Source: a virus. Taken from it: 64,000 bases of DNA. The stretch covers positions 19,020-83,019 of IMG/VR virus record IMGVR_UViG_3300032677_000017, one strand, 5' to 3'. Shown one piece after another: positions 36,928-61,089 of the stretch. Position 1 is the first letter of the stretch, and every line of letters starts with the position of its first letter. Both the position numbers and the translations under genes were made by a program. Under the pieces are notes generated by a model. That model did no database searches, was not told the origin of the DNA, and saw only the letters and a list, made by a program, of their open reading frames with translations.

Positions 36928-39141
36928 CTACCAATCATCATTGTAGCCGACCAACTCCTCCGCGCTCGATCCGGAACGGGCGGACTCCCTCCAGTTGCGG
37001 AACGCAGAAACCATCTCGGGCGTTATCTCTTGATCTGGAACACCTAGAACCCTCTTTGCCTGATACTGTATGCTACTTCCGGAGTAGCCCGGCGGAGAGG
37101 ATTGGTGAATCGGGGAAACCAGGGGGTTCGCTGCCGCAAAAGCCCAGTGAGGACTGACTGTGTATACCCCCTTCAGCCCCTTGATCGCCCTCTCGGCGTC
37201 CTCCCGGCGCTGGAAAACACCATCCGCAATTGGACGCATCGCTGAGTCGCGGATAACCCACGGACCCTGCCACGAAAAAGGCAGAGATCCCCAAATCTTC
37301 CCCTCGGCATCGCGTGGCTGCGCCATCGCCAAACCTGGAGACTCTCTCACCGACTGTAGCGTCTCACGCAGGCAATAGAGACAAATTGTCGAAGCCAGCA
37401 CTCCGTCGTCGTTGGAATCAACACCCTCGTATCTCTTGCGCCCCGGCCCCTCGTCGAGGGTTGCGAAGTCGCCCATCTCATCCAAAAGATCATGTGAGTA
37501 GATGACAATCGAATCAGTCAGAAGGGCATCGCGCATCTCGTCAATCACCAGGTCGCGCGTCTTGATTGAAGTCACCCAGTGAAGGTAGGGGGTGAAGGTT
37601 GTTTGAACCCTGTCCTTATGTCTCGGCCTCCACAGGTTTGGATAGTCCATATCGACCAAGGCGTCTCCGGTGGTGATTCCGGGTCCATTGTATTCATTTG
37701 TCACCTCAGCCCCGTTATACCAATACCCCAGGGCGGCCACGATTCCGGCAAATCTCTTCGGCGATTCCCAGCCCCACCACTCGGCAACCTGAACGTCTTT
37801 CTGCCCCAGAGACCCGGCCATAAACACCTCAGCCACGCTATAGTCTCCGCCATTTCCAAGAGCAGCATCCGAGCCGACATAGTAAGACCTTCCCGGCTCA
37901 GGCAAATGCCAAACATGAAGACGGTGACCACCTTTTCCACGCTTGCGAACAGGAAGATCTTCCCCCGGATCCACGGCGCGAATATCAAGCTCCTCGCGCT
38001 TTCCTCTGAGACGAATCTCTCCCGCATAAGCAGGATTCTTAGGGGCCCTCATTCTCTGCTCATCCATAGCATCGCGATCAAAGGCGCACAGGCCGGAGTT
38101 CTGGAACGCCTCTTCCGGGGTAATCGGGTAGGACTCCAGAAAACCGGCTTTGTTCTTTTTGGAACGCTTCAGGCCAAAATGGCGAAACTTCCAAAAACCG
38201 AGAGGAATTTCGTATTTTTGCTCCTTTTTCACCCGGTCATGAAACACCTGCTCAGTCTCGCTGAGGACGATATTGTCCGACTTTGAAACCGGAAGAAAAT
38301 ACTTCCTAACCCGATAGGTAGGAACAAATACCGGACGCCATCCGGTATCGCCAGCCACCGTATCTTGCCACCAATCGTAGAAAAGGCCATTCTTTCCCAG
38401 ACCAGTTGATTCCATCACATAGAACCCATCAATAGCGTTCATTGAGGGAAGAATGTCAGCCTCAAAAACCTGAGCATCAGGCCAGCGCGAAACCTCGCTA
38501 TAGTGGCCACTCCGTATGCTGCGGCCGATAGCCACGCCGCTCATCTTTTGAGCGTGAGAGATCTTCAACACAGATCCCAAGCCGGGATCGGACATAACCT
38601 GGTCCTCACCCTCGCGTTGAAAGTCAATACCTTCCGCGACCGACTTGTATCTCCACTCCGGCCTCATCCACCACGGGAGATTCTCATACGCCTTCACAGA
38701 CATCTTGTAGATGTGTGTGGACACAACTTTATCCTGAGCGACAATCAAGGTGAAGGTGTGGGGATAGAAGATCGTGCGGTGGAACATGTGCGCCTGAATA
38801 TGTGTGCTGCCGCCAAACTGACGCCCCTTGAGAAGAATCAGCTTGCAGCATCCGTTGTTCTCCCACTCCTCCTTCATTGCCGCGCTGACGATCTCCTGCT
38901 GATCCCAGTACGGATACAGGGTTTTCAGTTCGCCATTTTCGGTTGTGATTGTAAAGTAGTTTTTCGTCCAGTAGTCGGGATCAATGCACCTCTCCAGCTC
39001 CTCGTTGATCCAATCGTTTTCCGAGCGAGACAAGGCGGCGCTGGCCTCATCAACAGCATTGTTCCCGTGGAATCTTGCGAAGTGGCGCTCCAGCTCCTCG
39101 ATGGCGTCGTTCAGGTCGGGGTCTTGTCTAGGAAGCCTCAT
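36928..39141 (-). CDS. terL: terminase large subunit
   Basis: The protein has 737 residues. The ATPase has LKGRQFGGST (Walker A variant), DGFYVMESTG (Walker B and the coupling region) and FQNSG; the RNase H-like nuclease has GSDAALGNGGDYS and the DSNDDGV acidic site. It packages DNA into the prohead with the portal. The C-terminus is longer than average (about 130 extra residues). Confidence 0.9.
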   Translation of the reverse strand: MRLPRQDPDLNDAIEELERHFARFHGNNAVDEASAALSRSENDWINEELERCIDPDYWTKNYFTITTENGELKTLYPYWDQQEIVSAAMKEEWENNGCCKLILLKGRQFGGSTHIQAHMFHRTIFYPHTFTLIVAQDKVVSTHIYKMSVKAYENLPWWMRPEWRYKSVAEGIDFQREGEDQVMSDPGLGSVLKISHAQKMSGVAIGRSIRSGHYSEVSRWPDAQVFEADILPSMNAIDGFYVMESTGLGKNGLFYDWWQDTVAGDTGWRPVFVPTYRVRKYFLPVSKSDNIVLSETEQVFHDRVKKEQKYEIPLGFWKFRHFGLKRSKKNKAGFLESYPITPEEAFQNSGLCAFDRDAMDEQRMRAPKNPAYAGEIRLRGKREELDIRAVDPGEDLPVRKRGKGGHRLHVWHLPEPGRSYYVGSDAALGNGGDYSVAEVFMAGSLGQKDVQVAEWWGWESPKRFAGIVAALGYWYNGAEVTNEYNGPGITTGDALVDMDYPNLWRPRHKDRVQTTFTPYLHWVTSIKTRDLVIDEMRDALLTDSIVIYSHDLLDEMGDFATLDEGPGRKRYEGVDSNDDGVLASTICLYCLRETLQSVRESPGLAMAQPRDAEGKIWGSLPFSWQGPWVIRDSAMRPIADGVFQRREDAERAIKGLKGVYTVSPHWAFAAANPLVSPIHQSSPPGYSGSSIQYQAKRVLGVPDQEITPEMVSAFRNWRESARSGSSAEELVGYNDDW

Positions 39142-46967: not shown

Positions 46968-47444
46968 ATGCGAAACGGCCTCTATGAACTCGTCATCGCT
47001 CCAGAAGGATATCCCGGGAAGCTGTATCGAGGAAGATACTGCTATGAACACCACTTAGTGTGGTGGAAAAACACTGGGGAATTGGTAGTCGAGCCAATGC
47101 TCATTCACCACAAGAATGACCAAAAGCGCGACAATCGTTTTGAAAATTTGGAGAAGAAAGAACGCGCCAAGCATAGTAGCGACCATACCAAAGAAAGAAT
47201 GGGACCTCCTGGTTACGTTGAATTGAAATGCGCTTGGTGTGAAAAAACTTTTCAGATTCTTCGCAGAAATTTTGCTTTCAGAAGGCGATACACGAACAAC
47301 CACTGCTCCAGATCTTGTGCGGTCAAGAATCAGTGGCGGTTAGGGTTTGTAAATGTTGGCAAGAAAAAGTTTATTCACGGGAAGCTCTATGGCGAGCATT
47401 CCGCTGTTAACGGAAAAGGTGTGGGTTCGAATCCCTCCCCGTGA
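46968..47444 (+). CDS. HNH homing endonuclease overlapping tRNA-Asn
   Basis: The protein has 158 residues. The HNH core is YEHHLVWWKNTGELVVEPMLIHHKNDQKRDNRFENLE, followed by a CAWC...HCSRSC zinc ribbon. The last 24 codons (FIHGKLYGEHSAVNG...) are the tRNA-Asn gene read as protein; the stop lies in the tRNA acceptor stem. It is one of five endonuclease genes in the tRNA array. Confidence 0.75.
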   Translation: MRNGLYELVIAPEGYPGKLYRGRYCYEHHLVWWKNTGELVVEPMLIHHKNDQKRDNRFENLEKKERAKHSSDHTKERMGPPGYVELKCAWCEKTFQILRRNFAFRRRYTNNHCSRSCAVKNQWRLGFVNVGKKKFIHGKLYGEHSAVNGKGVGSNPSP

Positions 47445-47447
47445 GCC
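47375..47447 (+). tRNA. tRNA-Asn(GTT)
   Basis: Acceptor TCACGGG/CCCGTGA, anticodon arm TTCCG-CTGTTAA-CGGAA, T-loop TTCGAAT. It lies wholly inside the 3' end of the HNH reading frame, and CCA is only partly encoded. Confidence 0.85.
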
Positions 47448-47460
47448 TTTAGAAGTATGT

Positions 47461-47535
47461 TGCGCGTTGGTGAAATTGGAATCACAGATGGCTCTGAACC
47501 ATCAGTAGGGGGATCAAAACCTCCACGCGCAGCCA
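47461..47535 (+). tRNA. tRNA-Gln(CTG)
   Basis: Acceptor TGCGCGT/ACGCGCA, D stem GTGA/TCAC, anticodon arm GATGG-CTCTGAA-CCATC, G73 and CCA. The T-loop is ATCAAAA, with A in place of the usual T54. Confidence 0.8.
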
Positions 47536-47541
47536 AGTTAT

Positions 47542-47615
47542 AGCGGGATGGCCGATTGGTTAGGCACTGGCCTTTGGCACCAGTAAGACAGGTTCAATTC
47601 CTGTTCCCGCTGCCA
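47542..47615 (+). tRNA. tRNA-Gln(TTG)
   Basis: Acceptor AGCGGGA/TCCCGCT, G73 and CCA, T-arm ACAGG-TTCAATT-CCTGT. The anticodon arm CTGGC-CTTTGGC-ACCAG has one mismatch at the loop closure; anticodon TTG suits the G73. Confidence 0.7.
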
Positions 47616-47616
47616 T

Positions 47617-47692
47617 GCGGACGTAGCTCAATTGGTAGAGCATTGCGCTGCCAGCGCGAAGGTTGCCGGATCATTGCCGGTCGTCCGCTCCA
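47617..47692 (+). tRNA. tRNA-Gly(GCC)
   Basis: Acceptor GCGGACG/CGTCCGC, anticodon arm TTGCG-CTGCCAG-CGCGA, T73 and CCA. The T-loop ATCATTG is atypical. Confidence 0.8.
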
Positions 47693-47698
47693 GGTTTT

Positions 47699-47772
47699 GC
47701 CGGGTTGGTTTAGTGACATAACGGCGGGTCCGTACCCCGCAAGCAGGCGTTTGAATCGCCTACCCGGCTCCA
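47699..47772 (+). tRNA. tRNA-Thr(CGT), C33
   Basis: Acceptor GCCGGGT/ACCCGGC, anticodon arm GCGGG-TCCGTAC-CCCGC, T-arm AGGCG-TTTGAAT-CGCCT. Position 33 is C instead of T. Confidence 0.7.
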
Positions 47773-47792
47773 ACTATGATACGATTTAATTT

Positions 47793-48557
47793 ATGAGACT
47801 CGTATCAAAGCAGCAGTTTAATTCCGCTCGCAGTCGCGACCTTATCGACTTACGTTGCGATTTTTGCGACAGGATTTTCTGGTTACCGAAGCACGAGGCG
47901 ATGAGGAGAGCAAAACGCGGAACAGGAAAAACGTACTGCTCTCCTCTTTGCTCAAATGATTCACAGAGGAGGAATAAGCCAAAGCCTTGCAAGCAGTGCG
48001 GAAAAGATTGCCGCAAGATTTTTTGTTCTCACAGGTGTTCTGCGTTATTCAACAACCCCCTCAAGGCTAACAAGAAGAAAAAGTGCCTTGAGTGTGGAGT
48101 AAAGCACTCGAACAAAAAATTTTGTAGCCATGGATGCAATCAGAAAAACAAAGAGAAAGCGGTGCTCGTAGAATGGCGATCCGGAGCGCGTAGTGGGTTA
48201 ACAAAGAATGGCTTTCTTTGTGAAACCGTAAGACGGTACCTTCTTGGGAAATACGACAACAAGTGCTCTAGGTGTGGATGGTGCGAGGTTAACCATAAAA
48301 GTGGAAAGGTGCCGGTTCAGATCGAGCATATCGACGGGGATTTTCGCAATTGCAGTGAAAGCAATTTGATCGTTTTGTGCCCTAATTGCCATTCTTTAAC
48401 TCCGACATACATGTCGCTTAATCGGGGCAATGGAAGAGACGTTAACGGAATGAGGCGCAAAAAGGATGCCGGAATAGCTCAACAGGAAGAGCATATCATC
48501 GGTAATGATACGACTGGGGTTCGAGGCCCCATTTCGGCTCCAAGGTTTTTAATGTAA
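47793..48557 (+). CDS. HNH homing endonuclease overlapping tRNA-Thr(GGT)
   Basis: The protein has 254 residues. Several zinc ribbons (CDFC, CKQCG, CLECG) precede an HNH domain with CSRCGW, VQIEHIDGDFRNCSESNLIVLCPNCH. The last 30 codons are the tRNA-Thr(GGT) gene read as protein. A TTGAAT-18-TATGAT promoter starts inside the preceding tRNA's T-arm. Confidence 0.75.
   Translation: MRLVSKQQFNSARSRDLIDLRCDFCDRIFWLPKHEAMRRAKRGTGKTYCSPLCSNDSQRRNKPKPCKQCGKDCRKIFCSHRCSALFNNPLKANKKKKCLECGVKHSNKKFCSHGCNQKNKEKAVLVEWRSGARSGLTKNGFLCETVRRYLLGKYDNKCSRCGWCEVNHKSGKVPVQIEHIDGDFRNCSESNLIVLCPNCHSLTPTYMSLNRGNGRDVNGMRRKKDAGIAQQEEHIIGNDTTGVRGPISAPRFLM
48468..48542 (+). tRNA. tRNA-Thr(GGT), C33
   Basis: Acceptor GCCGGAA/TTTCGGC, D stem GCTC/GAGC, anticodon arm TATCA-TCGGTAA-TGATA, T-arm TGGGG-TTCGAGG-CCCCA. 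Position 33 is C. It lies inside the 3' end of the HNH frame. Confidence 0.75.
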
Positions 48558-48563
48558 GTTTTT

Positions 48564-48638
48564 GCCCTGCAAGCATTGCCGTCGATGCACCGGGCCTGTA
48601 CCCCGGACAATGCCGTTAGACTCGGCAGCAGGGCTCCA
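48564..48638 (+). tRNA. tRNA-Thr(TGT), C33
   Basis: Acceptor GCCCTGC/GCAGGGC, anticodon arm CCGGG-CCTGTAC-CCCGG, T-arm TGCCG-TTAGACT-CGGCA. Position 33 is C and position 56 is A. Confidence 0.7.
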
Positions 48639-48641
48639 AGT

Positions 48642-48721
48642 GTGGCCGTGCCGACTATTGGTATGTCGGGCATGTCTGTGGAACATGTCTCTTGTGGATT
48701 CGATTTCCACCGGCCACCCCA
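48642..48721 (+). tRNA. tRNA-His(GTG)
   Basis: Acceptor GTGGCCG/CGGCCAC, the hallmark C73, anticodon arm CATGT-CTGTGGA-ACATG, T-loop TTCGATT. The base before position 1 is T, not the encoded G of most His tRNAs. Confidence 0.8.
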
Positions 48722-48728
48722 TTTACGC

Positions 48729-48804
48729 GGGCCCTTAGCTCATTTGGGAGAGCGCCTCGTTTGCACCGAGGAGGCGGTCGGATCGAAGCCGACAGGGTCC
48801 ACCA
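48729..48804 (+). tRNA. tRNA-Ala(TGC)
   Basis: Acceptor GGGCCCT/AGGGTCC gives the G3-T70 alanine identity pair. Anticodon arm CCTCG-TTTGCAC-CGAGG, A73 and CCA. Confidence 0.9.
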
Positions 48805-48866
48805 GTTTTGCCGATTGAGCTAGTGCGGTCATAGCAGTGGTTTGATTTTAATGGTATAATGCTTGC

Positions 48867-49871
48867 ATGTTCAGAACTATACCATGTAGTAAATGTGGGA
48901 CAGAAATAGGGATGAATCGTATCAAGACGCATGAACGTCTGTGCGATGGTTTTGGACCTGCCCGCCGCAGGAAAACAGTGATTTTCGAGACCGATGTAGA
49001 CGGCAAGAAGATTTGTCCAGATTGCGGTAAGAAGTGCAGCAAATATGGCGCTGCAACTCACTGGAGGATTGCTCATCGTGGCGATTATGCTGGAAGACCG
49101 TTAGGCACTGGGCCAGCAAAAGGGAAATCTTGGAACAGAGGTCTGACAAAGGAAACGGACGAAAGGATAGCGAGAGCCTGTGCCAATGTCAGTGAAGGAG
49201 TAAGGCGATACGTTGCCAACATGACCGATGAGGACCGCAAGAAGCGATCTGAAATTGGAAGGAGAAAAAGTCCGACTAAAGGTGGCCCAAGAAAGGGGGC
49301 TGGACGTGGTAAAAGTGGGTGGTATCAAGGATTTTGGTGTGATTCGTCTTGGGAGTTGGCTTGGGTAATACACGCTATCGATCATTCAATTTCTTTCAGC
49401 AGAAATACGCTTGGTTATGAATATGAGTTTGAGGGTAAGCGATCCAAGTTTTATCCAGACTTTCTTTTGGGTGCTGGAAACCTAGTCGAAGTCAAGGGGT
49501 ATTTTGACCGACGCAACAATGCAAAGATAGCAGCAGTTGAAGGATTAACGGTTTTAGGCGAAAAAGAAATAAAGCCGTATTTGTTATATGCGGTTGAAAG
49601 GTTTGGTACTGATTTCGTTTCTGCTGCTTATCAACAACCGCCAGAATACAGATGTTGTGATTGTGGCACTGCCGTAACAAATAATGCTCCGCGCTGTGCA
49701 AGATGTGCTGGATTGAAGAGTGCGAAGTATAAGATTCAATGGCCGACAAATGAACAGTTGATCGATATGATTGGTTTAAGTAACCGAAATCAAGTTGCAA
49801 AACGGCTAGGGGTATCATTTAGTGCGATTGCGAAGCGTTTGAAAGTTCATGGACTCGTAGCTCCAATGTAG
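48867..49871 (+). CDS. PD-(D/E)XK homing endonuclease ending in tRNA-Phe
   Basis: The protein has 334 residues. Zinc fingers (CSKCG, CPDCGKKC...H) are followed by a PD-(D/E)XK nuclease site: CDSSWELAW, YPDFLL and LVEVKG. A C-terminal zinc ribbon and an HTH-like tail (NRNQVAKRLGVSFSAIAKRL) finish it. The stop codon lies in the D-arm of tRNA-Phe. A TATAAT with TGG before it ends 6 nt before the ATG, so it is leaderless. Confidence 0.75.
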   Translation: MFRTIPCSKCGTEIGMNRIKTHERLCDGFGPARRRKTVIFETDVDGKKICPDCGKKCSKYGAATHWRIAHRGDYAGRPLGTGPAKGKSWNRGLTKETDERIARACANVSEGVRRYVANMTDEDRKKRSEIGRRKSPTKGGPRKGAGRGKSGWYQGFWCDSSWELAWVIHAIDHSISFSRNTLGYEYEFEGKRSKFYPDFLLGAGNLVEVKGYFDRRNNAKIAAVEGLTVLGEKEIKPYLLYAVERFGTDFVSAAYQQPPEYRCCDCGTAVTNNAPRCARCAGLKSAKYKIQWPTNEQLIDMIGLSNRNQVAKRLGVSFSAIAKRLKVHGLVAPM

Positions 49872-49925
49872 AGCGACACGTTGAAGCCGTGTGCGGTGCT
49901 GGTTCAAGTCCAGTCGAGTCCACCA
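49851..49925 (+). tRNA. tRNA-Phe(GAA)
   Basis: Acceptor GGACTCG/CGAGTCC, D stem GCTC/GAGC, anticodon arm ACACG-TTGAAGC-CGTGT, A73 and CCA. Its first 21 nt are the end of the endonuclease gene. Confidence 0.9.
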
Positions 49926-49933
49926 TAGTTTAT

Positions 49934-50010
49934 CCGGGCCTAGCCTAGCGGCTTCAGGCACCTGTTTCGGGAACAGGATGAGCGGCGTTCAACTCGCCGG
50001 GTCCGGACCA
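49934..50010 (+). tRNA. tRNA-Pro(CGG)
   Basis: Acceptor CCGGGCC/GGTCCGG with the C1-G72 and A73 expected for Pro, anticodon arm CCTGT-TTCGGGA-ACAGG. Confidence 0.9.
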
Positions 50011-50016
50011 GCTTAA

Positions 50017-50093
50017 CCGTGTGTGGCGCAGCCAGGAAGCGCACCTGATTTGGGATCAGGGGGTCATCAGTTCGAATCTGATCACGCGGACCA
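50017..50093 (+). tRNA. tRNA-Pro(TGG)
   Basis: Acceptor CCGTGTG/CACGCGG, anticodon arm CCTGA-TTTGGGA-TCAGG, T-loop TTCGAAT, A73 and CCA. Confidence 0.9.
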
Positions 50094-50097
50094 TTGA

Positions 50098-50174
50098 GGG
50101 GCTGTAGCTCATCTGGATAGAGCGCCGGTTTGCGGAACCGGAGGCAGCAAGTTCGAACCTTGCCAGCCCCACCA
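50098..50174 (+). tRNA. tRNA-Arg(GCG)
   Basis: Acceptor GGGGCTG/CAGCCCC, anticodon arm CCGGT-TTGCGGA-ACCGG, T-loop TTCGAAC, A73 and CCA. Confidence 0.9.
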
Positions 50175-50180
50175 TACTTC

Positions 50181-50256
50181 GCACCTGTGGCAGAGTGGAT
50201 TATGCTCCTGTATTCGAAACAGGAAGACGCGGGTTCGAATCCTGCCAGGTGCCCCA
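50181..50256 (+). tRNA. tRNA-Arg(TCG)
   Basis: Acceptor GCACCTG/CAGGTGC, anticodon arm CCTGT-ATTCGAA-ACAGG, T-loop TTCGAAT, C73 and CCA. Confidence 0.85.
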
Positions 50257-50303
50257 GGTTACCAAAGTTCTCTTGCAATCTTCCCCCAGACCGGCGTTAT
50301 ACT
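50257..50303 (+). promoter_or_regulatory. promoter with GTTACC box inside the tRNA array (tmRNA unit)
   Basis: GGTTACCAAAG follows directly after tRNA-Arg(TCG); 9 bp from GTTACC is TTGCAA (50273-50278), and TATACT (50298-50303) follows after 19 bp. It would restart transcription for tRNA-Met, tRNA-Asp, the microproteins and the tmRNA. Confidence 0.55.
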
Positions 50304-50310
50304 TGTCTCC

Positions 50311-50387
50311 AGCGGATATGGAGAAAGGGAGTCTCGTCAGCCTCATAAGCTGAATATCGCCGGAGTCGGGGTCCGGATCCGCAACCA
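50311..50387 (+). tRNA. tRNA-Met(CAT), A1-A72 mismatch
   Basis: Acceptor AGCGGAT/ATCCGCA has an unpaired A1-A72, a feature like that of bacterial initiator tRNAs, but the anticodon stem TCAGC/GCTGA lacks their three G-C pairs. Loop CTCATAA. It could serve as initiator, elongator or Ile2. Confidence 0.75.
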
Positions 50388-50392
50388 AGTTT

Positions 50393-50466
50393 GGACCATT
50401 GTTCTATGGGTATGATGTTCGGCTGTCTACCGAACAGAGCGAGTTCGAGTCTCGCATGGTCCGCCA
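50393..50466 (+). tRNA. tRNA-Asp(GTC)
   Basis: Acceptor GGACCAT/ATGGTCC, G73 and CCA, anticodon arm TTCGG-CTGTCTA-CCGAA, T-arm GCGAG-TTCGAGT-CTCGC. Confidence 0.85.
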
Positions 50467-50543
50467 ATGTCCGGGCTGGTGTAGGCCTCCTTTCCTCCGC
50501 GCCCACCGGAGGGGACAAAGTGGGCACAAGTTTTGGAGGAACA

Positions 50544-50579
50544 ATGATTCACGCGGAGGATGCCATGACAAGTACATAG
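50544..50579 (+). CDS. 11-residue micro-ORF (possible leader peptide)
   Basis: ATG after TTGGAGGAACA opens MIHAEDAMTST and stops at TAG. It lies 16 nt before the next small gene's start. A leader peptide is possible. Confidence 0.35.
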   Translation: MIHAEDAMTST

Positions 50580-50595
50580 TGAAAGGAGACTTGTC

Positions 50596-50781
50596 ATGGG
50601 CAATGCACACGCTTCAAGGCACCGTCGTGGGCTCGGAAAGCCATGTTCCATCGGTTGCCTTTATTGCGCGATGCGCCCCAAGGATGGGCCACCCGGGAAG
50701 CGGCGCAAAAACTACGCCAACAAAACTTCCAGGGGCCGCCATGTTCCCCATGGGCGCAACGCAAACCGCCGCAAGGGTTAA
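50596..50781 (+). CDS. small basic zinc-motif protein upstream of the tmRNA
   Basis: The protein has 61 residues from an ATG after AAAGGAGACTTGTC. It is Arg/Lys/His-rich with CSIGCLYC in the middle. A basic peptide directly before the tmRNA could be an RNA-binding or ribosomal-type protein. Its stop lies about 9 nt before the tmRNA acceptor piece. Confidence 0.55.
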   Translation: MGNAHASRHRRGLGKPCSIGCLYCAMRPKDGPPGKRRKNYANKTSRGRHVPHGRNANRRKG

Positions 50782-50787
50782 GCATGT

Positions 50788-51083
50788 CAACGCTGTAGGG
50801 ATGTGGTTTCGGACGCGGGTTCAATTCCCACCGGGTCCACCAGAGAGGGTTGGAAGCTGCTTTAGGACTTACCCCCTTGGAAAAAGTGAGCGGTTAATGT
50901 CAACCCTCTCTTGTGGGCCCGTCACGGTTTCGACGGGATCAGGGATCTACAGTTTCATGCCGGGATTGATGCTCACCGCAACGAGAATCAAACCATAAGT
51001 GCAGCAGCATTTGCGCTCCCGGTTGCCGCCTAAACAACGGTAACCCGTGGACGGCCGGGTTCCATGTAAAAAAACACCCGGCA
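50788..51083 (+). ncRNA. ssrA: two-piece (circularly permuted) tmRNA
   Basis: The acceptor piece comes first (about 50788-50842): a P2 strand with CTGTAG, T-arm GCGGG-TTCAATT-CCCAC, acceptor CGGGTCC, A73 and CCA. The coding piece follows (50915 to about 51083): GGGCCCG, which pairs with CGGGTCC and gives the G3-U70 alanine pair, then the signature GGTTTCGACGGG, CTACAG that pairs with CTGTAG, and a tag frame ending ...ISAAAFALPVAA and TAA, then a GCCGGGT/ACCCGGC hairpin. Between the pieces GAGAGGGTTG pairs with CAACCCTCTC, the expected precursor stem. It tags proteins from stalled ribosomes. Confidence 0.85.
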
Positions 51084-51090
51084 AGGTTTT

Positions 51091-51167
51091 GGCCCTGTCT
51101 GCTAAGTGGATAGGCAACTGGACTCTCACTCCGGAAATGACGGGTTCGAATCCCGCCAGGGCTACCA
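51091..51167 (+). tRNA. tRNA-Glu(CTC)
   Basis: Acceptor GGCCCTG/CAGGGCT (G1-T72), anticodon arm CTGGA-CTCTCAC-TCCGG, T-arm ACGGG-TTCGAAT-CCCGC, A73 and CCA. Confidence 0.85.
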
Positions 51168-51214
51168 AGTTGCATTTGTTTGGGAATTACGTACTTAACT
51201 CCCTTGGAGGGTAA

Positions 51215-51688
51215 ATGAGCATCGTTCATCAAAGTCAGTTGATGCCAGCCGAGAACAAGTTTCACGTCGGCAATAGCGAAGATGGAAAACATTACTGGAT
51301 CACTCCGCCTGATCTCTATTCGGCGCTGGACACAGAGTTTCACTTCGATTTTGACCCATGCCCCTTCCCGCTTCCGGTAGGCTTTGACGGCCTCACTTGC
51401 GAATGGGGTAAGTCTAATTACGTCAATCCGCCGTTTGGGTCCATCATTCATCAAGGCAAGAAGAAAGGTCCGACCGCTTGGGTCCGTAAGTCCATTGAAG
51501 AGCAGCAAAAAGGGAACCTCGTTGTGCTTGTCTACCCCGTCGATAAATGGGTGCTCATGATGCTCAAGGCTATCGGGACTAAAGTCCGAAACCTTGGCGA
51601 CGTTCGATGGCTTGCAACTGAGGACATGTCCATCGGCAAAGGTACTGGAAGGCATATTGCAGCTTTCATTTTGGAGCCGAAACTGTGA
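51215..51688 (+). CDS. DNA N6-adenine methyltransferase (phage Dam family)
   Basis: The protein has 157 residues. It has the phage Dam_MTase pattern: YWITPPDLYSALDTEFHFDFDPCPFP, then the catalytic NPPF (KSNYVNPPFGS) and LVVLVYPVDKW. A CTTGGAGGG site precedes the ATG. It may protect phage DNA from restriction. Confidence 0.8.
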   Translation: MSIVHQSQLMPAENKFHVGNSEDGKHYWITPPDLYSALDTEFHFDFDPCPFPLPVGFDGLTCEWGKSNYVNPPFGSIIHQGKKKGPTAWVRKSIEEQQKGNLVVLVYPVDKWVLMMLKAIGTKVRNLGDVRWLATEDMSIGKGTGRHIAAFILEPKL

Positions 51689-51721
51689 AAGGGACTCAAG
51701 TATATAAGTCCCATTTGTTTT

Positions 51722-51799
51722 GAGATGGCAGGCTGCGTCGGTTTGGCCCACGGTCTTTCACACCGTGCTACGCGGGTTCGACTCCCGTCCATCTCGCCA
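51722..51799 (+). tRNA. tRNA-Glu(TTC)
   Basis: Acceptor GAGATGG/CCATCTC, G73 and CCA, anticodon arm ACGGT-CTTTCAC-ACCGT, T-loop TTCGACT. Confidence 0.9.
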
Positions 51800-51817
51800 G
51801 TTCTATGAGGAGGAATC

Positions 51818-52000
51818 GTGAAGGTTGCAAGGAGTCACATCGTCGCCGCAATCGAGGTAGCTGATCAGATCAAGAACGGCAAGATTCTTTTTTATCCCAA
51901 ATACGCCATCAAGGCCAAACGCTATGCCGGAAAAGACAAATCCACCGGCGAGTTTGGGTGGACGGTATCGGTTGTTCCTCTCCGGCCAGTCAAAGCATAA
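51818..52000 (+). CDS. small protein upstream of the GGQ gene
   Basis: The protein has 60 residues from a GTG after GAGGAGGAATC (MKVARSHIVAAIEVADQIKNG...). It is a small alpha/beta sequence without a known motif. Its stop is 2 nt before the GGQ gene start, so the two are likely coupled. Confidence 0.5.
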   Translation: MKVARSHIVAAIEVADQIKNGKILFYPKYAIKAKRYAGKDKSTGEFGWTVSVVPLRPVKA

Positions 52001-52002
52001 AA

Positions 52003-52335
52003 ATGAAAACCCTCTTGTTTTCCCTTACTTCAAAAGATTTCGAGTTTCAGACTTTTTGCACTGGCGGCAACGGCGGCCAACACCGCAACGCAAAGCAAAA
52101 CGGTGTGCGGTGTATCCATACAGCCTCTGGGGCCAGGGCCGAACACCGCGACGGACGCGATCAGCGGAAGAATAAGGAAGAAGCCTTCCGCAAATGCGCC
52201 GAGACCCCTCAGTTTAAGGCTTGGCACAGGGCTGAAACTATGCGCCGCATGGGCCTCATGAAGAGCGTTGACCGGGCCGTTGATGAGGCTATGAGGCCAG
52301 AAAACATCAAGGTCGAGATTTTGAATGGGATCTAA
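52003..52335 (+). CDS. stop-codon-independent release-factor-like protein (GGQ domain, ArfB/RF-H type)
   Basis: The protein has 110 residues. The catalytic loop CTGGNGGQHRN has GGQ at residues 24-26, followed by GVRCIHTASG and RDQRKNKEEAFRKC, the RF-1 domain signature that cleaves peptidyl-tRNA on the ribosome. There is no codon-recognition domain. This is the layout of ArfB/ICT1-like rescue factors and PrfH. It lies 0.9 kb from the tmRNA and tRNA genes. Family assignment is strong; which rescue pathway is inferred. Confidence 0.8.
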   Translation: MKTLLFSLTSKDFEFQTFCTGGNGGQHRNAKQNGVRCIHTASGARAEHRDGRDQRKNKEEAFRKCAETPQFKAWHRAETMRRMGLMKSVDRAVDEAMRPENIKVEILNGI

Positions 52336-52359
52336 AGAGGACTTCGAGGAGTCTGATTG

Positions 52360-52433
52360 TGGAGCGGCCGAGGAGATTCAAACTCCCGTCATCGGATTGG
52401 AAGTCCGAGGCCCTATCATTGGACGACGGCCGC
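52360..52433 (-). tRNA. tRNA-Gly(TCC)
   Basis: Acceptor GCGGCCG/CGGCCGC, anticodon arm TCGGA-CTTCCAA-TCCGA, T-arm GGGAG-TTTGAAT-CTCCT, T73 and CCA. Confidence 0.85.
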
Positions 52434-52438
52434 AAATT

Positions 52439-53051
52439 TGGTGCCGGATGCTGGGCTTGAACCAGCTACCTCTCGCTTATATCGTATCCAATTGATCAAC
52501 CGATTTTAATTCATAGTCTGATGCCAATCTAACTCCTCGCACTTGATTGTTGGCTGACGGCTTGAATCTCAAGGCAATATCCCTTTTCAATTGTCTCAAT
52601 AAATCTGGTCCGAATAGATAGAACTTCCGATCATTCGGTTCGTAAGCTACGAGTGCATCTACTTGATTTTCGTAGCTACGATGAACAACTTTTCCGTGGT
52701 CAGTTGTATTATTTACAAATGATACCGAGAATGTCTTACCATTATTACGCCATGTTGTTTTTACCTGCACTCGTAGCAGTCGTTTTCCAGTGTCTACGAT
52801 CATATCGTAGCGGTGGCGGTCTCCAAGTGGAACAGATACCGCTAATCCTTGTTCAACACACCATAGAGCAAACCTCATCTCAGATATGTCGCCTGTCTGC
52901 TTGGTGTTAATTTTTGTTGTCGCGTTAATCATCGAACTCACAACCTTTCCATTATCGATGGAATCCTATTCCAAATTTATCTACGCTACAATCATATAAC
53001 ACATTACTCCTGTATACCGAACGCTCTAAGCCATCGGTGAGCTAATCCGGC
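52439..53051 (-). tRNA. split tRNA gene interrupted in the anticodon loop
   Basis: The 5' half (53051 to about 53014) has acceptor GCCGGAT, D-arm GCTC...GAGC and TTCGG. The 3' half (about 52479-52439) has CGAG, T-arm GCTGG-TTCAAGC-CCAGC, ATCCGGC, A73 and CCA. The acceptor halves pair perfectly. A 465-bp endonuclease gene lies between, with about 70 nt of A+T-rich spacer on its 5' side. The anticodon cannot be read; TAT is suggested by the 3' half (TATAAG). Confidence 0.6.
52477..52941 (-). CDS. PD-(D/E)XK homing endonuclease inside a split tRNA
   Basis: The protein has 154 residues from GTG after GGAAAGG. The PDDEXK pattern is TGDISEMRFALWC (E), GDRHRYDMIVD (D) and VQVKTTW (QxK type). This type of fold is known for I-Ssp6803I, encoded in a group I intron of a cyanobacterial tRNA-fMet. 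The gene's stop codon touches the 3' tRNA half. Confidence 0.7.
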   Translation of the reverse strand: MSSMINATTKINTKQTGDISEMRFALWCVEQGLAVSVPLGDRHRYDMIVDTGKRLLRVQVKTTWRNNGKTFSVSFVNNTTDHGKVVHRSYENQVDALVAYEPNDRKFYLFGPDLLRQLKRDIALRFKPSANNQVRGVRLASDYELKSVDQLDTI

Positions 53052-53056
53052 AAACC

Positions 53057-53132
53057 TGGTGCGGAGTGAGGGACTCGAACCCCCGACGACCTGCTTGTAA
53101 GGCAGACGATCTAGCCGCTGATCAAACTCCGC
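53057..53132 (-). tRNA. tRNA-Val(TAC)
   Basis: Acceptor GCGGAGT/ACTCCGC, anticodon arm TCTGC-CTTACAA-GCAGG, T-loop TTCGAGT, A73 and CCA. Confidence 0.85.
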
Positions 53133-53205
53133 AAAATACCCTAAACAACTTATAACTTAGGCGTATACATCAAAAAACCGGAACACGCCCAAGATACAAA
53201 GCAAC

Positions 53206-53282
53206 TGGAGCTGCCGACAGGACTCGAACCTGCCTTATCCACCTACGGTGTTCGCCTTCGGAGGGCGACCCGGTACGGCAGC
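53206..53282 (-). tRNA. odd tRNA with CCG anticodon, no D-arm and a long variable arm
   Basis: Acceptor GCTGCCG/CGGCAGC, T-arm GCAGG-TTCGAGT-CCTGT and anticodon arm TCGCC-CTCCGAA-GGCGA are strong. Only five nt separate positions 9 and 27, so there is no D-arm, while an 18-nt variable region can form CACC/GGTG. Nominally Arg(CCG). Confidence 0.55.
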
Positions 53283-53286
53283 AAAC

Positions 53287-53363
53287 TGGTGGTCGCAGGA
53301 AGAGTCGAACTTCCGGCCTACGGTTTAGGAAACCATCGCTCTATCCGTCTGAGCTATGCGACC
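53287..53363 (-). tRNA. tRNA-Arg(CCT)
   Basis: Acceptor GGTCGCA/TGCGACC, anticodon arm ATGGT-TTCCTAA-ACCGT, T-arm GGAAG-TTCGACT-CTTCC, A73 and CCA. Confidence 0.85.
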
Positions 53364-53380
53364 AAATCTGGTGATCCTAA

Positions 53381-53455
53381 TGGAAGACCTATCCCGGATC
53401 GAACGGGAATCATTCGCTTAGAAGGCGAGGCTCTATCCCTTTGAGCTATAGGTCC
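53381..53455 (-). tRNA. tRNA-Arg(TCT)
   Basis: Acceptor GGACCTA/TAGGTCT, anticodon arm CTCGC-CTTCTAA-GCGAA (one mismatch), T-arm TCCCG-TTCGATC-CGGGA, T73 and CCA. Confidence 0.75.
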
Positions 53456-53457
53456 AT

Positions 53458-53536
53458 TGGTGAGACGGGTGAGATTTGAACTCACGTTTATGACGACTTA
53501 AAAGGTCGTTGCCGAACCAGACTAGGCGACCGTCTC
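53458..53536 (-). tRNA. tRNA-Lys(TTT)
   Basis: Acceptor GAGACGG/CCGTCTC, anticodon arm ACGAC-CTTTTAA-GTCGT, T-arm GTGAG-TTCAAAT-CTCAC, A73 and CCA. Its first 15 nt are the end of the upstream endonuclease gene. Confidence 0.85.
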
Positions 53537-54121
53537 TCGTAAATTCTTGGTATATTCTCTGTTTGCTCTTGTACAACCATCGCAATGCCGAAGACCGCGA
53601 CGAGCTTCTGCTAAGTATCCCGACCTTGTTCCGTGCTGAATTTCAAGCAGTTTTCTCGGACCACCGTTGTTCTTCTTTTGATATTTACGAACGCAATCCT
53701 TGCAGTCAGATGCTAAACCATCCCAACGGCTTTTGTTCTTGCTGAACATCGCAACTGGCTGAGGCTTTTTGCAGGTTGAGCATCGTTTTGTCCCGTCTTC
53801 TTGGAGAGCGTTTCTGTACCTGCCGGATTGTTCCGCGCAATTCTGCATCTGTGAAACAATCCTTATGTTTCCAAGTTCGTAGTGACCAGAATCGCCAATC
53901 CTTGCCGCGTTAGGTGTAACGTCAGGATTCTCTTTTTGAAACTTCTCGTATTCAGGGATGGCCCATTTCAGCCATTCATCCCACGTCATTCGTAATTCCA
54001 CATTCGCGTAAGAGGGGTTCTTCCCATCTTTATTAAGACACCTTTTCAACATCCCATAATACGCTGCTTTTGCTCGATAAAGAGGGGTGCGATGAATCTC
54101 CGGGCTTTTGTAGGCAATCAT
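53522..54121 (-). CDS. HNH-type homing endonuclease ending in tRNA-Lys
   Basis: The protein has 199 residues. RIGDSGHYELGNIRIVSQMQN is the conserved HNH/NUMOD-type segment, and two CxxC pairs (CSTC...CKDC, CDGC) follow. The final codons ETVA and the stop are the acceptor and D-arm start of tRNA-Lys(TTT). A TTGACA-17-TAAGTT promoter ends 6 nt before the ATG. Confidence 0.7.
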   Translation of the reverse strand: MIAYKSPEIHRTPLYRAKAAYYGMLKRCLNKDGKNPSYANVELRMTWDEWLKWAIPEYEKFQKENPDVTPNAARIGDSGHYELGNIRIVSQMQNCAEQSGRYRNALQEDGTKRCSTCKKPQPVAMFSKNKSRWDGLASDCKDCVRKYQKKNNGGPRKLLEIQHGTRSGYLAEARRGLRHCDGCTRANREYTKNLRETVA

Positions 54122-54127
54122 GTCTTA

Positions 54128-54156
54128 AACTTAAAATAATCTTGCCTACGTGTCAA
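54128..54156 (-). promoter_or_regulatory. leaderless-type promoter of the 53522 endonuclease
   Basis: TTGACA (54156-54151), a 17-bp spacer, TAAGTT (54133-54128), then six nt and the ATG at 54121. Confidence 0.6.
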
Positions 54157-54232
54157 TGGTGGATGCGGAAGGATTTGAACCTTCATCTTCACGGGTAAGG
54201 GCCGTGCATACTAGCCGTTGTACTACGCATCC
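54157..54232 (-). tRNA. tRNA-Lys(CTT), C33
   Basis: Acceptor GGATGCG/CGCATCC, anticodon arm CACGG-CCCTTAC-CCGTG, T-arm GAAGG-TTCAAAT-CCTTC, A73 and CCA. Position 33 is C. Confidence 0.75.
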
Positions 54233-54234
54233 AC

Positions 54235-54329
54235 TGGGGCCGGAAGAGGGAATCGAACCCGTCTCGCATCGGTAATCTACCGACAACTACAAGGCTTATA
54301 AGACCTCGCGGCAACCTATGCTTTCCGGC
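54235..54329 (-). tRNA. class II tRNA with TAT anticodon
   Basis: Acceptor GCCGGAA/TTCCGGC, C73 and CCA, T-arm with TTCGATT, anticodon arm GAGGT-CTTATAA-GCCTT. A long variable arm CGGTAGATTACCG is present, as in Leu, Ser or Tyr tRNAs, yet the anticodon reads the Ile codon AUA. Confidence 0.6.
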
Positions 54330-54338
54330 AAAACTGCT

Positions 54339-54438
54339 GTTGTGCGATCCGGCCCTTACATCGGAAAAGATGCAGGATATTCCGGTTACTCGCTAGTCAG
54401 GCTCTCGCCCTTCTGCTGCCGCGTTTCACCCGCACAAC
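54339..54438 (-). ncRNA. unassigned structured RNA with 8-bp closing stem
   Basis: On the minus strand GTTGTGCG (54438-54431) pairs with CGCACAAC (54346-54339), and an inner TGCATC/GATGTA hairpin is present. It sits in the array like a tRNA but lacks a T-loop and CCA. It may be a decayed class II tRNA. Confidence 0.35.
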
Positions 54439-54443
54439 AACCT

Positions 54444-54516
54444 TGGTGCCGCACGGGGGAAACGATCCCCTACTCCGTCTGCTTTATGAGGGCAGCGTTC
54501 CTCTTGGATATGCGGC
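54444..54516 (-). tRNA. second tRNA-Met(CAT)-type gene
   Basis: Acceptor GCCGCAT/GTGCGGC, loop CTCATAA in a CTGCC/AGCAG stem with one mismatch, T-arm with ATCGTTT loop, A73 and CCA. The D-arm is short. It may be an Ile2 (lysidine) tRNA. Confidence 0.65.
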
Positions 54517-54521
54517 GAGTC

Positions 54522-54592
54522 TGGCGCGGGACCGGAGAGTCGAACTCCGCACGGCGGCGTTTGGAGTGCTGCCTGATCTCGGATCGTCCCGC
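54522..54592 (-). tRNA. tRNA-Trp(CCA)
   Basis: Acceptor GCGGGAC/GTCCCGC, G73 and CCA, T-arm CGGAG-TTCGACT-CTCCG, loop CTCCAAA. The anticodon stem has two mismatches. Confidence 0.7.
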
Positions 54593-54608
54593 ATTTTCAA
54601 AGAGCATT

Positions 54609-54632
54609 AAAAAACCCCCACCTGAGTGGAGG
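54609..54632 (-). terminator. intrinsic terminator within the tRNA array
   Basis: On the minus strand CCTCCAC pairs with GTGGGGG over TCAG, followed by TTTTTT. It separates the tRNA-Tyr/Ser/Leu block from tRNA-Trp and those beyond. Confidence 0.7.
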
Positions 54633-54657
54633 TCTGGTGGTGCCAACACGCAGACCC

Positions 54658-54723
54658 CTAAGACACGACTCCCCAAATGACCCGCTTGGTCATCCTGGTT
54701 ATCGGTTTGGTCTTGGTCATCAT
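54658..54723 (-). CDS. 21-residue micro-ORF
   Basis: MMTKTKPITRMTKRVIWGVVS lies between tRNA-Tyr and the terminator. The ribosome site is weak (GGGAAG, 9 nt away). It may not be translated. Confidence 0.25.
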   Translation of the reverse strand: MMTKTKPITRMTKRVIWGVVS

Positions 54724-54759
54724 GTTGTTAATCTTCCCATGGATGGGCTGCGATGTCAA

Positions 54760-54850
54760 TGGTGCGTTCGGCAGGATTCGAACCTGCAGCGTCCTCAAAG
54801 AGGATTCCGGGTTACAGCCGGACAGTGTCCACCGTCTCACCAGCGAACGC
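54760..54850 (-). tRNA. tRNA-Tyr(GTA)
   Basis: Class II: acceptor GCGTTCG/CGAACGC, anticodon arm TCCGG-CTGTAAC-CCGGA, variable hairpin TCCTC/GAGGA, T-arm GCAGG-TTCGAAT-CCTGC, A73 and CCA. Confidence 0.9.
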
Positions 54851-54856
54851 ACAATA

Positions 54857-54943
54857 TGGTGGAGGGTAATGGTATCCATCCATCATCCCTTACGGGAGCC
54901 ACGGTGTTCAGGACCGTTTGCCTCAGCATCGGCGGTACCCTCC
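54857..54943 (-). tRNA. tRNA-Ser(TGA), C33
   Basis: Class II: acceptor GGAGGGT/ACCCTCC, anticodon arm ACGGT-CCTGAAC-ACCGT with C at position 33, variable hairpin TCCC/GGGA. The T-loop ATGGATA is atypical. Confidence 0.7.
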
Positions 54944-54948
54944 AAACT

Positions 54949-55035
54949 TGGCGGTAGCGGCGTGAGTCCAACACGCAACGGCTTTCACCGTGTCCGCTTT
55001 CGAGGCGGGTGGGCTTGGCAATGCCCAACGCTACC
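54949..55035 (-). tRNA. tRNA-Ser(CGA)
   Basis: Class II: acceptor GGTAGCG/CGCTACC, loop CTCGAAA, T-arm GCGTG-TTGGACT-CACGC, G73 and CCA. Confidence 0.85.
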
Positions 55036-55036
55036 G

Positions 55037-55122
55037 TGGAGGAAGGCAGGTCACTCGAAGACCAGTCCTTACGGACCTCATCGCTTTCCAAGCGAGACCA
55101 CAACCTCAGTGGTTTACCTTCC
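55037..55122 (-). tRNA. tRNA-Ser(GGA)
   Basis: Class II: acceptor GGAAGGT/GCCTTCC, loop TTGGAAA, variable hairpin GTCC/GGAC, T-loop TTCGAGT, T73 and CCA. Confidence 0.8.
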
Positions 55123-55127
55123 CAAAC

Positions 55128-55214
55128 TGGCGGAGAGCCGAGGTCTTGATCCCCACTCCCGAAGGAGCCATCGGTTTAGCAAACCGCGCCCATGCCCTGA
55201 CGGGTTGACTCTCC
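55128..55214 (-). tRNA. tRNA-Ser(GCT)
   Basis: Class II: acceptor GGAGAGT/GCTCTCC, loop TTGCTAA in a CGGT/ACCG stem, variable hairpin CTCC/GGAG, G73 and CCA. Confidence 0.85.
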
Positions 55215-55279
55215 AAAATATCTACTGCATCGACATATCACCAAAACATGTCGATTTTCTGCCCATCTTTCGACGTATT

Positions 55280-55360
55280 TGGTGCCGCACGTCAGAATCG
55301 AACTGACAAACAATCAACAGTTTTTGAAACTGTCCGCTTTACCTATTTGCGTAGTGCGGC
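55280..55360 (-). tRNA. tRNA-Leu(CAA)
   Basis: Acceptor GCCGCAC/GTGCGGC, anticodon arm ACAGT-TTCAAAA-ACTGT, T-arm GTCAG-TTCGATT-CTGAC, A73 and CCA. The variable arm is only about 9 nt. Confidence 0.8.
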
Positions 55361-55367
55361 ACAATTT

Positions 55368-55459
55368 TGGTAGGCGTGGTGGGGGTCGAACCCACAGGTG
55401 ACCGTTTAGGGTACGGCAGTTTCTAAGACTGCTGGCTGATCCAATTCGCCGTCACGCCC
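55368..55459 (-). tRNA. tRNA-Leu(TAG)
   Basis: Class II: acceptor GGGCGTG/CACGCCT, anticodon arm GCAGT-CTTAGAA-ACTGC, T-arm GTGGG-TTCGACC-CCCAC, A73 and CCA. Confidence 0.9.
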
Positions 55460-55535
55460 ACGTTTTTGTTTTTTCTTCCACTCGTTAATAGTAAAATTGT
55501 GAGCTTTCTTGCAAGCATCACATCTGCACCCACGT
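55460..55535 (-). pseudogene. remnant of an endonuclease-type ORF between two tRNAs
   Basis: The minus frame here encodes RGCRCDACKKAHNFT followed by a Lys-rich helix, resembling the C-terminal cysteine/helix unit of the 53522 endonuclease (GLRHCDGCTRANREY). It is open into both neighbouring tRNAs but has no start of its own. It looks like a decayed insertion. Confidence 0.35.
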
Positions 55536-55609
55536 TGGAGAGCGCGAGAGGAATCGGACCTCCGTAAACGGCTTTGCAGGCCGCTGCATGACCACTCTGC
55601 CACGCGCTC
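55536..55609 (-). tRNA. tRNA-Cys(GCA)
   Basis: Acceptor GAGCGCG/CGCGCTC, anticodon arm GCGGC-CTGCAAA-GCCGT, T73 and CCA. T-loop TCCGATT. Confidence 0.85.
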
Positions 55610-55610
55610 G

Positions 55611-55685
55611 TGTGGGAACCGGGAGTCGAACCCGGAGACAACGGTTTTTAAGACCGTCCGCTCGATCCATTCGGCGTGTTCCCAC
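55611..55685 (-). tRNA. tRNA-Leu(TAA), short variable arm
   Basis: Acceptor GTGGGAA/TTCCCAC, anticodon arm ACGGT-CTTAAAA-ACCGT, T-arm CCGGG-TTCGACT-CCCGG. The variable region is only 5 nt, unlike normal bacterial Leu tRNAs, and CCA is not encoded. Confidence 0.7.
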
Positions 55686-61012: not shown

Positions 61013-61089
61013 TGCCGAAACCCCCCCATGGGGGTCCGCCGGAAATAGCCTACCGGCGCTGATAAGGCAGGCTAGAGAGCAGGGAATCA

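Follow-up and report, generated by a model that had tools for sequence, protein, structure and literature searches.

The 64-kb window analysed here, i.e., the whole stretch of DNA under study, is part of an 83,019-base virus record and very probably carries an intact-looking, functional-looking permuted ssrA gene, coding for the two-piece form of the ribosome-rescue RNA tmRNA, of a tailed phage that is known from metagenomes only. The order of the gene is circularly permuted: the acceptor piece, with its CCA end at 50842, precedes an intervening segment and the coding piece, whose G1 lies at 50915. The Rfam family RF04321 (tmRNA_permuted) matched positions 50782-51033 over its full length (model positions 1-213) with 89.4 bits against a curated cut-off of 47, the E-value being 7.4e-16 for the whole window searched against 4227 Rfam families. 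Independently, a permuted tmRNA (tmRNA*) with the tag AAAFALPVAA was called by ARAGORN. Together with the phage genes on the contig, these two calls bear out the initial annotation, which had proposed a phage-borne permuted tmRNA, perhaps with a tag of its own, and had named covariance models as the check. A match to a clade-specific Rfam model was obtained in part: beta_tmRNA (RF01850) was matched over its full length (E 1.5e-16), but with 56.7 bits the curated cut-off of 84 was not reached.

RF01850, the betaproteobacterial family, is the best of the older clade-specific models, and the likeness extends to a tag of 10 codons and to the hairpin at the stop codon. The last hairpin of this model is unmatched in the window, where a tRNA-Glu begins at 51091, and its consensus tag is ANDEHFAMAA instead of AAAFALPVAA. 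Among these clade models, it is the beta type that the window gene resembles most, yet the gene scores below the beta cut-off. Both strands of the 64 kb were scanned for a T loop and CCA followed by a 7-mer of full complementarity; of the two places returned, only the tmRNA site is followed by TTCGAC.

Anatomy, folding and covariation of the gene

The acceptor piece (50782..50842, + strand) comprises the 5' P2 strands, the T arm, the 3' acceptor strand and an encoded CCA, as derived from the RF04321 match from 50782, sequence positions and the fold; its 5' end is an estimate. Its sequence closes with CGGGTCC-A-CCA at 50842, and GGGCCCG opens the coding piece at 50915, giving an acceptor stem in which 7/7 pairs are formed and the alanine-type G3-U70 is present. 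When a five-pair T arm is examined, four of the five T-stem pairs hold and the second is a C-A mismatch. P2 is made up of three segments, namely, GCAUG (50782-50786) with CAUGC (50956-50960), CUGUAG (50793-50798) with CUACAG (50947-50952), and GGUUUCG (50805-50811) with CGGGAUC (50934-50940). Because GCATG at 50782-50786 pairs with CATGC at 50956-50960, the acceptor piece should extend at least to 50782; the CCA end and the coding start given earlier were retained, and the start of the acceptor piece was moved to a position at least as early as 50782. A 61-aa frame rich in arginine and lysine (50596-50781, + strand) ends with a stop codon that abuts this first P2 strand. The intervening segment (50843..50914, + strand, 72 nt) is closed by a helix between GAGAGGGTTG (50843-50852) and CAACCCTCTC (50901-50910), which is intact in the fold, and the segment would be expected to be removed.

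The coding piece (50915..51084, + strand) was delineated from model matches, the fold and sequence positions, and contains the 5' acceptor strand, the 3' P2 strands, a PK1-like element, the tag frame, a stop-codon hairpin and a final hairpin (51054-51084), from which the 3' end at 51084 is estimated. The PK1-like hairpin UUGAUGCUC/GAGAAUCAA (50966..50991, + strand) lies 5' of the resume codon in the MFE fold and, on a by-eye reading, its loop (CCG) could form a PK1-like pseudoknot with a CGG that lies upstream. The tag frame, GCA...TAA (51001..51033, + strand; ARAGORN, translation), is open and encodes AAAFALPVAA, i.e., a hydrophobic VAA end followed by the stop codon. An 8-bp hairpin (51021..51045, + strand) has this stop codon in its loop and is seen in the fold and in the segment aligned by the beta_tmRNA model. 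Directly downstream, tRNA-Glu (51091..51167, + strand; ARAGORN, Rfam) is probably co-transcribed with the tmRNA. All elements named in the initial annotation, namely, the acceptor piece, the coding piece, G3-U70, P2, the closing helix and the tag, were found to be present.

In unconstrained folding, the precursor reached -120.7 kcal/mol (z -3.7), and 0/100 shuffles were equally stable. This fold recovers P2 and the acceptor stem, the latter stacked on the helix that closes the intervening segment. The co-fold of the two presumed mature pieces alone was weakly significant (z -1.8), because the acceptor stem is not formed there in unconstrained folding. For covariation, permuted tmRNAs of viral contigs were gathered by pattern, of which 15 records were confirmed with the Rfam model, and those of XacN1, PaMx31 and Melnitz were added, resulting in 16 distinct tRNA-like domains. 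The tRNA-like helices covary strongly across these viral homologues: standard pairs occupy 97.4% of their cells, both sides have changed in 11/19 pairs, and double-change cells number 56 vs 17 in shuffles. When the partners were slid by 1-3 columns, pairing dropped to 42-54%, a firmer control than the shuffles, since the latter ignore relatedness. A chance resemblance to tmRNA was rejected on the basis of the model E-value, the shuffles and the covariation.

Phage context and integrity of the gene

The contig is metagenomic, and permuted tmRNA genes normally reside on bacterial chromosomes, so that a fragment of a host chromosome or a chimaeric assembly was considered as well. However, the record that holds the tmRNA also encodes a major head protein, a portal, a terminase large subunit, a replication initiator and a DnaB helicase, and a second contig (3300032562_000046) carries an identical tmRNA with 99.995% identity over the surrounding 21 kb. 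A host or chimaeric origin was rejected on these two grounds as extremely improbable. Two more contigs match other parts of the record with 99.98% identity, and a search with the 334-aa neighbour protein returned the near-identical contig as its only match. The phage was left unclassified here, because its terminase and head protein have only distant relatives among named phages.

Within the window, 29 tRNAs were predicted by ARAGORN, 28 of them in a cluster at 47375-55685, where tRNA-Asp and tRNA-Glu are the neighbours of the tmRNA. The left arm of the cluster is on the + strand and the right arm on the - strand; most amino acids are covered, and neither a Met nor a Trp tRNA was called. An HNH-domain frame (46968-47444) overlaps the first tRNA of the cluster, and a type II hammerhead ribozyme (RF02276) was matched elsewhere in the window (61013-61076, + strand, 41.9 bits vs a cut-off of 37). 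Between 50250 and 51250, the + strand showed no sigma-70-like promoter, and the tmRNA may be transcribed together with the tRNAs. SmpB and a tyrosine integrase were not found in searches of the phage record, which may be incomplete.

The gene could also have come from a host and be in decay, in which case it would be a tmRNA homologue that is no longer active and a passenger in the tRNA cluster. The C-A mismatch in the T stem, the atypical tag and a model score that is low beside those of other viral copies (89.4 bits being the second-lowest RF04321 score in the viral tmRNA set) are in line with such decay. It is nevertheless unlikely, as each of the seven pairs in the acceptor stem and of the seven P2-proximal ones is kept with letters unlike those of the relatives, the tag can be read through to a proper stop, and the intervening segment has an intact closing helix.

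Relation to other phage and cellular tmRNAs

The initial annotation had started from the premise that the known phage tmRNAs are one-piece. This premise is outdated, as the two-piece tmRNA of the Methylophilales phage Melnitz was described in 2022 (PMC9004378), and it is also contradicted by the permuted tmRNAs recovered in this study from named cultured phages and IMG/VR contigs. In the 2022 work, 402 phages yielded 133 unique tmRNA structures, 53 of them two-piece as suggested by ARAGORN (PMC9004378), and a 2025 tmRNA database contains 79 phage sequences (PMC11915505). Melnitz (EXVC044M, MZ577097) is likewise a tailed phage with a permuted tmRNA (RF04321, 113 bits). It differs from the window phage in being a marine member of the Kyanoviridae for which a glutamine riboswitch at ssrA has been reported (PMC9004378), and its tmRNA has the acceptor stem GGGGGCG, another T loop and another tag.

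The permuted form was further recovered from Xanthomonas phage XacN1, Pseudomonas phage PaMx31 (Samunavirus), Bordetella phage PHB04 and more viral contigs (loci of cultured phages: L043 and L046, XacN1; L044, PaMx31; L047, SM1; L048, PHB04). XacN1 has two copies, at record positions 37231 and 356026, and the PHB04 record has 94,005 bases, its tmRNA site coinciding with that of contig L002. No feature is annotated at the permuted tmRNA sites in the records of XacN1, SM1 and PHB04. The gene form and tRNA-like domain of XacN1, PaMx31 and PHB04 are as in the window, whereas the XacN1 and PaMx31 tmRNAs score above the beta_tmRNA cut-off and the window tmRNA below it. The tags of these three phages start with AN (ANANTFDYALAA, ANDTSFDVRLAA and ANDDYIRAAA) and that of the window with AAA; throughout the viral set, most tags begin with AN, often AND, and the window tag keeps the VAA end. 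Four loci (L025, L030, L031 and L033) have unusually long ARAGORN tag frames of 27-29 aa, e.g., ANASTGEVTVSGKNVKFSARTVKAESFAV and AEDADTFEFGALSFTGNTVGGEVAVAA, and at L032 the ARAGORN tag GPSEPAQAG... is probably in the wrong frame, the usual resume position reading ANDSVYAQAIAA-stop by eye. The tmRNA known from Pseudomonas and Xanthomonas themselves is one-piece, so the tmRNA forms of phage and host would differ there.

Nucleotide searches with the window tmRNA gave no match among named phages and plasmids. Its acceptor-strand pattern was absent from two scans of genome contigs (~85,000 species genomes), in which the strict patterns and the fixed range of intervening lengths could let a cellular relative escape. 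The window tmRNA is a further example of a known phage form, with a moderately unusual tag. What is particular to it is modest, namely, the acceptor-strand pattern and a tag that lacks the usual AN(D) start and has the VAA end.

Proposed function and implications

From the features described above, we infer a route that would depend on the host throughout. Host tRNA-processing enzymes would cleave the transcript behind the encoded CCA (50842) and in front of G1 (50915), and the resulting pieces would be held together by the acceptor stem and P2. Caulobacter offers a precedent, its permuted transcripts being processed into two pieces (Keiler et al. 2000, as cited in PMC9004378). Host alanyl-tRNA synthetase would charge the molecule via G3-U70 and host SmpB would deliver it to stalled ribosomes, where Ala + AAAFALPVAA would be added to the stalled product. 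The VAA end should be recognised by ClpXP/ClpAP-type proteases, and the likely benefit is that ribosomes are kept circulating during infection, beside the many tRNAs of the phage.

The tag leaves room for other roles. The adaptor SspB binds to the AND region of E. coli-type tags and ClpX to their last residues, so that a loss of adaptor binding with degradation kept is plausible for the window tag. It is conceivable, with a low probability, that evolution has given the phage a tag of its own, by which rescued proteins would bypass an SspB-type adaptor of the host and be handled unlike host-tagged ones; if so, the phage tmRNA would be a re-targeting device, beyond a mere supplement. A role as regulator or decoy, in which the phage RNA would compete for SmpB or alanyl-tRNA synthetase with the tmRNA of the host or alter the fate of tagged proteins through the different tag, would likewise fit the missing AN(D) start, and expression in E. 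coli of a tag-less tmRNA form from phage DS6A inhibits the endogenous tmRNA (PMC11915505). Such a role is doubtful for the window tmRNA, in which, unlike in the DS6A form, the tag frame is complete, with a VAA end that resembles a degron and with a stop codon.

The window gene provides a clear two-piece example, unlike that of Melnitz in sequence, from a phage that also has a large set of tRNAs. The permuted form is spread over several unlike phages, some of them grown on Pseudomonas and Xanthomonas. Phage tags differ among themselves, and therefore it becomes testable whether phage tmRNAs do no more than supplement ribosome rescue by the host or redirect the tagged proteins.
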